A stretch of DNA of 34,459 nucleotides from a virus: positions 1 through 34,459 of the IMG/VR virus record IMGVR_UViG_3300024518_005496. One strand, 5' to 3'. The notes beneath the pieces were generated by a model. That model did no database searches, was not told the DNA's origin, and saw nothing but the letters and a program-made list of their open reading frames with translations. Below, piece after piece: positions 33,532-34,459 of this stretch. Each line of letters begins with the position of its first letter. Position 1 is the first letter of the stretch. Position numbers and translations under genes: made by a program.

Positions 33532-33560
33532 ATTATAACACATTTCAAGATGATTGTCAA
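33532..33560 (-). promoter_or_regulatory. Consensus leftward early promoter
   Basis: On the minus strand TTGACA (33555-33560), exactly 17 bases, then TATAAT (33532-33537): a perfect sigma-70 promoter. Two direct copies of TTTCAAGATGA (33543-33553 and 33565-33575, 22 bases apart) lie in the spacer and just upstream of the -35, and a GGTTTTCAAAACC palindrome sits at 33584-33596. These look like operator sites. Confidence 0.85.
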
Positions 33561-33760: not shown

Positions 33761-33838
33761 CGGCTGTTAGACAACAGAATACAAATCGCGCTCCATTTGG
33801 AGTCCTGTTTGTGTTCTGTTGTTTGAAGGCCGTTTTTT
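33761..33838 (+). terminator. Attenuator-like hairpin in the rightward leader
   Basis: ACAACAGAATACAAA (33771-33785) pairs with TTTGTGTTCTGTTGT (33808-33822) with one mismatch, enclosing a CTCC/GGAG hairpin. Flanking CGGC/GCCG can extend the stem, directly before TTTTTT (33833-33838). It lies between the rightward promoter and a well-placed ribosome binding site, hence a possible antitermination or attenuation element. Confidence 0.6.
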
Positions 33839-33877: not shown

Positions 33878-34162
33878 GTGAAGCAATTTTATAAGGGGAG
33901 GCCCCCCCCTGGAAAGAAAAACGACCTCGCTGTAGAAGCAGCGAGGCCGGGGAGTAGACAATTTACCAGGCTGGTTGATTGTCAATACAATCGAAATGAT
34001 ATATCAAAAGATCAACATTGTCAAACTTTTGACAATGTTGTAAAACCTTTTACAACCCCAAGTATACCACACTATACCACCCAATTTCAACAAAATCAGA
34101 GAACCACCGCCGCGCTGGACTTACTCCGGCAGGCTGATTTGCGCTTGGCCAACCTGCAATAA
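33878..34162 (+). CDS. Possible rightward ORF with perfect ribosome binding site
   Basis: A 94-residue frame from GTG with AGGAGG seven bases upstream. Composition is Gln/Arg/Thr-rich with no motif. The frame crosses a minus-strand intrinsic terminator and overlaps the better-supported 49-residue gene on the opposite strand, so either only the start region is translated or the frame is fortuitous. Confidence 0.35.
   Translation: MKQFYKGRPPPGKKNDLAVEAARPGSRQFTRLVDCQYNRNDISKDQHCQTFDNVVKPFTTPSIPHYTTQFQQNQRTTAALDLLRQADLRLANLQ
33914..33946 (-). terminator. Intrinsic terminator for leftward transcription
   Basis: CCTCGCTG (33925-33932) and CAGCGAGG (33939-33946) form an 8-bp GC-rich stem with a six-base loop. 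On the minus strand it is followed by TCGTTTTTCTTT. It would stop transcripts from the secreted-peptide gene before the control region. Confidence 0.75.
34013..34056. repeat. Two overlapping perfect palindromes
   Basis: CAACATTGTCAAA and its complement with a two-base centre (34013-34040), and GTTGTAAAA/TTTTACAAC with a two-base centre (34037-34056), share GTTG. A smaller GATTGT/ACAATC dyad lies at 33977-33992. They resemble paired operators; the minus-strand stop codon of the small secreted gene lies inside the second. Confidence 0.8.
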
Positions 34163-34199
34163 AAACAAGTGCTAAAACTAACGTGATTAACTTTTTCAT
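34050..34199 (-). CDS. Small secreted or membrane peptide (49 residues)
   Basis: A 49-residue gene too short for usual gene finders. AGGAGG lies eight bases before the ATG. The N-terminus MKKLITLVLALVFIAGWPSA is a textbook signal peptide, with likely cleavage after Ala20, leaving about 29 residues rich in Trp, Tyr and Arg. It begins 21 bases after the GTTATAC core of the attC-like site, the normal place for a cassette gene. The function is unknown. Confidence 0.7.
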   Translation of the reverse strand: MKKLITLVLALVFIAGWPSANQPAGVSPARRWFSDFVEIGWYSVVYLGL

Positions 34200-34219
34200 A
34201 ATGTACGCCTCCTTTAGAC

Positions 34220-34283
34220 GTATAACGGTTAAAATTCAGCCGATTGCGTAGTTTGCAATTCGGCTGCAATTTTGTTGTTATGT
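34220..34283 (-). other. attC-like recombination site (candidate)
   Basis: Read on the minus strand: ACATAAC (R''-like), spacer, AGCCGAATTGC, seven-base loop, GCAATCGGCT, spacer, GTTATAC (R'-like). The inner arms pair over ten bases with one unpaired base on one side only, which is the extrahelical-base hallmark of folded attC sites. The outer cores are complementary at five of seven positions. The total of 64 bases is a normal attC length. No integron integrase is in the window. Confidence 0.5.
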
Positions 34284-34312
34284 TGCGTACCAGAGCCGCC
34301 AAATAAAGACAT
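34229..34312 (-). CDS. Very short ORF running into the attC-like site
   Basis: A 27-residue frame (MSLFGGSGTQHNNKIAAELQ and on) whose stop lies inside the attC-like site; cassette genes often end this way. The ribosome binding site is weak (AAGGG, distant). It may be a remnant of a longer phage gene. Confidence 0.25.
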   Translation of the reverse strand: MSLFGGSGTQHNNKIAAELQTTQSAEF

Positions 34313-34384
34313 TTGTTTTGGCCCTTGTAACGTTTGGGATGTACGGCATAAACCCGGCTGTAGCAATTCGCCTTGATTTTGATT

Positions 34385-34393
34385 GTTATATGG
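34385..34393 (+). repeat. GTTATATGG core motif, copy 5
   Basis: Read on the minus strand, the sequence from here resembles the first half of the attC-like site at 34220-34283 (ATAACAA, then AAATC-AAGGCGAATTGC), but the matching second half is unclear. The rest of 34313-34459 has no convincing gene. Confidence 0.35.
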
Positions 34394-34459
34394 CTGGTTG
34401 GGTGGAAATTACCACCACTTTTGCAATGAATCAATCCACAACTTAGCATTTGGGATTGT

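Follow-up and report, generated by a model that had tools for sequence, protein, structure and literature searches.

A probable integron attC site in a tailed phage contig and its relation to reversed cassette arrays in viral genomes

Background

Is the hairpin near the right end of a tailed phage contig a genuine integron recombination site and, if so, which gene travels with it? Integron integrases (IntI) bind the folded bottom strand of an attC site and cut it in the R' box, adjoining the G. The site has a polarity: beyond R'' is the gene of the cassette that owns the attC, and beyond R' comes either the next cassette or DNA of foreign origin. Published pipelines for attC detection ask for two sites no more than a few kb apart, and a lone site such as the one studied here escapes them.

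A preliminary description of this locus had proposed an attC-like site with an adjacent signal-peptide gene, adding that cassettes in tailed phages are rarely described. The latter statement needs qualifying, as phage attC arrays are no longer undescribed: phage CALINs are already known from Tetrasphaera phage TJE1, Polaribacter phage P12002L and Pseudoalteromonas phage PH101 (Qi et al. 2023, PMC9892861). Here we analyze the element at positions 34220-34283 of IMG/VR record IMGVR_UViG_3300024518_005496, a linear virus contig of 34,459 bases. This whole stretch of DNA is referred to as the window.

Results

Phage context of the window

The window encodes a DnaB helicase, a DNA methyltransferase, TerL, a portal protein, a head protease, a major head protein and a tape measure protein. 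No terminal repeat indicating circular closure was found in the contig, and positions 1-31 are a poly-A and poly-C run that is probably an assembly or library artefact. In agreement with the preliminary description, no match to an IntI-type integrase was found in the window, the record being a fragment. Most of the IMG/VR relatives by TerL (L003-L009) share little with the window beyond the methyltransferase and the small and large terminase genes, and no attC was found in them. Such attC-less, poorly syntenic relatives are consistent with acquisition of the site in this phage lineage, and do not prove it. A search for TerL in bacterial genomes gave no match. Elsewhere in the window, between early genes, a 22-bp inverted repeat (95 %) at 2656-2677 and 2794-2815, its copies 116 nt apart, encloses a tRNA-T-arm-like GGGTTCGAGTCC motif with no tRNA or Rfam match.

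The element has the architecture of an attC site

Read on the minus strand from 34283 to 34220, the element is ACATAAC AACAAAATT G CAGCCG A ATTGC aaactac GCAAT CGGCTG AATTTTAACC GTTATAC. It begins with an R'' box, ACATAAC (34277-34283), which continues into AAC (AACAA), as attC sites do, and ends with an R' box, GTTATAC (34220-34226), preceded by C (CGTT) and having the form seen in Shewanella phage M16-3 (GTTATAC/GTTATAT). The two R boxes are complementary at five of seven letters, as had been proposed for the outer cores, with the AAC/GTT core unbroken. Each departs by one letter from the strict consensus (NYNYAAC / GTTRNRY), as do the boxes of Vibrio and Shewanella sites. Between them, fold, alignment and model all place paired L boxes, separated from the R boxes by an unpaired spacer. 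The 6-bp L'' core CAGCCG (34266-34261), located by alignment with genuine attC, pairs with the L' core CGGCTG (34237-34242) in both the fold and the model alignment. Alignment with genuine attC also identifies the first extrahelical base as the G at 34267 on the top strand; folds and model alignment identify the second as the base at 34260, A on the top strand and T on the bottom. Both lie in the L'' arm, 6 bp apart, the same arm as in attC-aadA. The distance from the R box to the extrahelical base is one base above that of most attC sites.

The AACAA at R'' and the CGTT at R' give concordant attC orientation: the site lies on the minus strand, and its recombinogenic bottom strand is the plus strand of the window. 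As single-stranded DNA this plus strand folds with -15.5 kcal/mol (z = -5.2), a stability reached by none of 200 shuffles; the minus strand folds less stably (z = -4.4). The plus-strand fold is one hairpin composed of an outer stem, a small internal loop and an inner stem with two unpaired bases. The bottom-strand fold proposed as a check thus shows the expected extrahelical bases, and there are two of them. The earlier picture of a ten-base inner stem with a single unpaired base is right in outline; the actual stem is longer and carries two bulged bases, in the L'' arm.

Covariance-model and scan evidence

Genuine attC sites were taken from class 1 integron plasmids, from the Shewanella phage integron and from contigs fetched by alignment of three integron integrases. 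Of these, 26 that adjoin integron integrase genes were aligned to make covariance model R1, the window being excluded, and the structure of the model is backed by covariation. With filters off, R1 matches 34220-34283 on the minus strand over its full length (model positions 1-66) at 34.9 bits and an E-value of 1.9e-8, which is rough owing to a short calibration, while the empirical gap to the next match in the window, at 14.3 bits, is clear. That runner-up, at 2810-2828, was considered as a second attC and rejected: it is a 19-bp R-R mini-hairpin without L boxes.

Across 450 kb of viral loci the window element ranks first with R1. The attC sites of phage TJE1, none of which is in the model, score 31.9, 28.8 and 28.0 bits. 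For two attC of the TJE1 array, not assigned here to individual ones of the three matches, recombination with attI1 has been demonstrated, and IntI1 activity on phage-borne attC is established (Qi et al. 2023, PMC9892861). The remaining matches above 14 bits in the viral loci come only from TJE1 and Vibrio phage p16, both previously known attC carriers. That the model is specific and also reads orientation is seen in 36 bacterial intI loci: every intI there is on the plus strand, and all 96 matches at E<=0.001 are on the minus strand. Many bacterial attC score 40-70 bits, and the window element is below most of them; its composition of 38 % GC may explain part of the lower score.

A loose scan, requiring R boxes (AAC[AC][AC] and CGTT), pairing and a bottom-strand fold, finds dozens of sites beside intI genes and, in the window, a single site, the element at 34220-34283. 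None of nine other viral sequences yielded a site, although one of them contains the known TJE1 sites, so the scan is not fully sensitive. In 600 dinucleotide-shuffled windows it gave 0.19 matches per shuffle, only one match in all being at least as stable as the element. A cassette attC (L050:6310-6379) has exactly the same L boxes, GCAGCCGA/TCGGCTGA, and agrees with the element in both extrahelical positions. The exact hairpin pattern is absent from IMG/VR, Rfam has nothing near the element at gathering score, and comparing the DNA of the region with phages and plasmids gave only short chance matches.

The proposal of an attC-like site, which a lack of hits at relaxed thresholds would have undermined, is thus borne out by the R1 match, by the correct placement of both extrahelical bases and by a score above those of the TJE1 sites. 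There is a high probability that 34220-34283 is a real attC. That it is simply coding sequence is unlikely, given the low codon scores of the frames that cross it: a 117-aa ORF in minus frame 1 scores -31.5, and a 45-aa minus-strand open frame (34229-34366) reaches the 8th percentile of true genes. The 117-aa ORF was rejected as a gene, as was a plus-strand ORF of 94 aa at 33878-34162 (codon usage at the 1st percentile of true genes).

Flanking genes and the owning cassette

The window attC reads leftwards, and the cassette that owns it extends from 34284 onwards and is cut by the contig end at 34459, 176 bp from R''. The 49-aa signal-peptide-like ORF with its AGGAGG, on the minus strand at 34050-34199, lies on the R' side, outside that cassette. 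Its ATG at 34199 is 20 nt past the core, so the sequence agrees with the earlier observation of such a gene just after the core. Its assignment as the cassette gene of this attC is not supported: it is on the wrong side, and no second attC closes a cassette, none being found to its left above 14.3 bits in the window with R1. The window has one attC only and no gene bounded by two recombination sites. The codon score of the 49-aa ORF lies at the 15th percentile of true genes and the 98th of wrong frames, with the first 25 codons being coding-like (37th percentile of true genes). No relatives of the peptide were confirmed in IMG/VR, and matches in phages were at chance level.

On the R'' side, a 42-aa ORF with a hydrophobic N-terminus runs on the plus strand at 34318-34446, against the attC polarity. 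Its codon usage is at the 66th percentile of the phage's true genes and the 100th of stop-free wrong frames. It starts 34 nt after R'', and the next attC is not visible before the contig end. With a TTG start that lacks a Shine-Dalgarno sequence, and with no homologue found, its standing as a candidate gene of the truncated cassette is only suggestive.

The DNA to the left of the element carries several further signals. On the minus strand, a sigma70-like promoter (TTGAAA-18-TATACT, 34061-34090, a consensus match only) overlaps the tail of the 49-aa ORF, and an intrinsic-terminator-like hairpin (33922-33949) lies downstream of it. Ahead of the block of structural genes, the minus strand has a perfect extended sigma70 promoter (TTGACA-17-TATAAT, 33532-33560), and upstream there is a perfect operator-like palindrome of 13 bp (34013-34040). 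At 33761-33832, an imperfect inverted repeat of 35 bp with a T-rich stretch behind it is a possible leader RNA or attenuator.

Cassette genes mostly run against attC in IMG/VR viral arrays

A pattern derived from the window L boxes matched three other viral contigs (L180, L181 and L182), with 4, 8 and 5 attC respectively, and in all three the array genes are on the strand opposite the attC. Polarity was assessed by comparing the best Shine-Dalgarno-supported ORF on each strand between consecutive attC. Bacterial intI loci gave 40 ORFs on the same strand as the attC, 10 opposite and 16 undecided; viral intI loci gave 2, 39 and 17; and viral contigs found by the attC pattern gave 8 (7 of them in isolate contigs L188 and L195), 45 and 13. 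After removal of isolate contigs and duplicates, 97 viral intervals remained, with 64 opposite ORFs and 8 on the same strand; the subset with a strong Shine-Dalgarno sequence comprises 24 opposite versus 1 same. The opposite ORFs match 51 PHROG families, including a DHH phosphoesterase (9e-106), DNA methyltransferases and exonucleases, and the same-strand ORFs have no PHROG match. Genes of the reversed cassettes start at a median of 25 nt after R'' (about 20-32 nt) and stop at a median of 6 nt inside the next attC.

The IMG/VR contigs with reversed attC arrays are L106-L129, L180-L182, L189-L194 and L197. Several array contigs carry head, tail, virion or terminase genes, though the contigs were not each checked singly. 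The arrays of TJE1 and M16-3 have canonical polarity. The literature searched, which covered no preprints and few subscription papers, contains no description of reversed phage arrays, and these seem to be undescribed.

A tree of 116 IntI unites 17 viral IntI (L105, L106, L108, L111-L119 without L110, L121-L124 and L129) in one clade that has no bacterial member, with support of 0.979. The arrays of this virus-only clade comprise 24 opposite intervals, none on the same strand and 20 undecided. Two further loci were noted. L200 8686-8813 is a locus of the named phage Virus Rctr41k (KX853513), whose IntI-like gene shows 44.9 % identity to a viral IntI and which also has one attC-like site, at 19.2 bits; here the integrase, the site and the genes share a strand. 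L046, labeled a Chloroflexi MAG, has a 68 %-identical IntI and at least 7 attC, and may be a proteobacterial contaminant.

Discussion

We regard it as very likely that 34220-34283 is an integron attC in a tailed phage, the distal or only member of an array that would run past 34459, and that the 49-aa ORF is flanking DNA. As the hairpin scores as a genuine attC, the phage, to judge from its sequence, can probably exchange genes with integrons. In the mechanism that we propose, the bottom strand, which is the plus strand of the window, folds into a hairpin in which the R boxes and the L boxes are paired, the spacer stays unpaired and two bases are extrahelical. This hairpin would be bound by an integron integrase, which the host, another element or a gene lost past the edge of the contig would provide. 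By analogy with known sites, cleavage is predicted between G 34226 and T 34225, beside the G of GTTATAC, and cassettes could be inserted or removed there. Recombination at the site and the extent of the array beyond the contig end are predictions.

More tentative is the class to which the site belongs. As in most attC arrays of phage contigs, the ORF at 34318-34446 may be a cassette gene running against the attC polarity. The window would then be one of the reversed-cassette phage integrons, for which the chances are about even; that it falls in a phage-specific integron class, with genes inverted relative to attC and an array whose reading direction is that of a phage-lineage IntI instead of diverging from it, we rate slightly below even. 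If the reversed layout applies, the cassette gene would be read by a phage operon and not from a Pc promoter.

The main competitor to this reversed layout is a boundary between cassettes of canonical polarity, in which the 49-aa minus-strand gene starts a following cassette whose attC has decayed or been lost, and the upstream cassette has a minus-strand gene that ended past the edge of the contig. The strong Shine-Dalgarno sequence of the 49-aa ORF and its start 20 nt after R' resemble those of cassette genes, its first 25 codons are coding-like, and the phage arrays of TJE1 and M16-3 are canonical. However, nothing to the left scores as an attC above the 14.3-bit runner-up, the ORF tail overlaps promoter-like sequence with a palindrome just downstream, and no minus-strand frame in 34284-34459 has good codon usage. 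We consider this account rather unlikely, though it deserves to be kept in mind.

The remaining alternatives concern the attC itself, against which one can hold that the site is alone, that its R boxes match at only five of seven letters and that the contig end, 176 bp from R'', hides any array or integrase. A chimeric assembly join between phage and bacterial integron fragment would account for an attC so near the contig end, and the homopolymer run at the left end makes end quality doubtful; yet GC content is even along the window and attC arrays occur in many other IMG/VR contigs, making a chimera very improbable. Marginally less probable still is a chance resemblance to attC of a phage transcription terminator or regulatory RNA structure. 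The hairpin does have ORFs on either side and further hairpins in its neighborhood, and weak terminator activity is possible for attC sites, but neither strand has a T tract after the hairpin, the terminator scan does not call it, Rfam does not match it, and chance does not account for two extrahelical bases together with matching R boxes and L boxes at E 1.9e-8.

Read as an integron attC, the window site joins the phage-borne attC already known. Such sites offer a route for cassettes between phages and bacterial integrons. Among the phage attC arrays of metagenomes, reversed genes are common and the virus-only IntI clade is frequent. If the reversed layout is true, phages run an integron lineage of their own, beyond picking up fragments of bacterial integrons, and it is phage operons, not the Pc promoter, that drive the transcription of cassettes, in the direction of the integrase, which would revise the view of how cassette expression and capture are coupled.

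Among known systems, the window most directly recalls the CALINs of TJE1, P12002L and PH101, which likewise place attC without an integrase in a tailed phage and share the single-strand hairpin with R boxes, L boxes and extrahelical bases. The R1 scores of TJE1 are comparable (28.0-31.9 against 34.9 bits); unlike TJE1, whose cassettes follow the attC polarity, the window shows a single site, at the contig end, and its best ORF runs against that polarity. Class 1 integron cassette attC (those of the attC-aadA type, and L050:6310-6379) have the same 6-bp separation of extrahelical bases and AACAA at R'', whereas the window site is AT-richer, has the R box GTTATAC in place of GTTAGRY and a spacer one base longer, and is accompanied by neither integrase nor array. 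Shewanella phage M16-3 and Vibrio phage Va_90-11-286_p16 also have phage-borne attC, with GTTATAY/GTTATGY R boxes, but carry intI and arrays whose genes follow the attC polarity, the integron of Va_90-11-286_p16 being a subset of the chromosomal integron of its host. The IMG/VR arrays L180-L182, L192-L194 and L106-L129 resemble the window in lying in phage genomes and in having the attC on the strand opposite to the neighboring gene, which in the window is a candidate gene; unlike the window, they have several attC, and those of L106-L129 mostly occur with an IntI of the virus-only clade.
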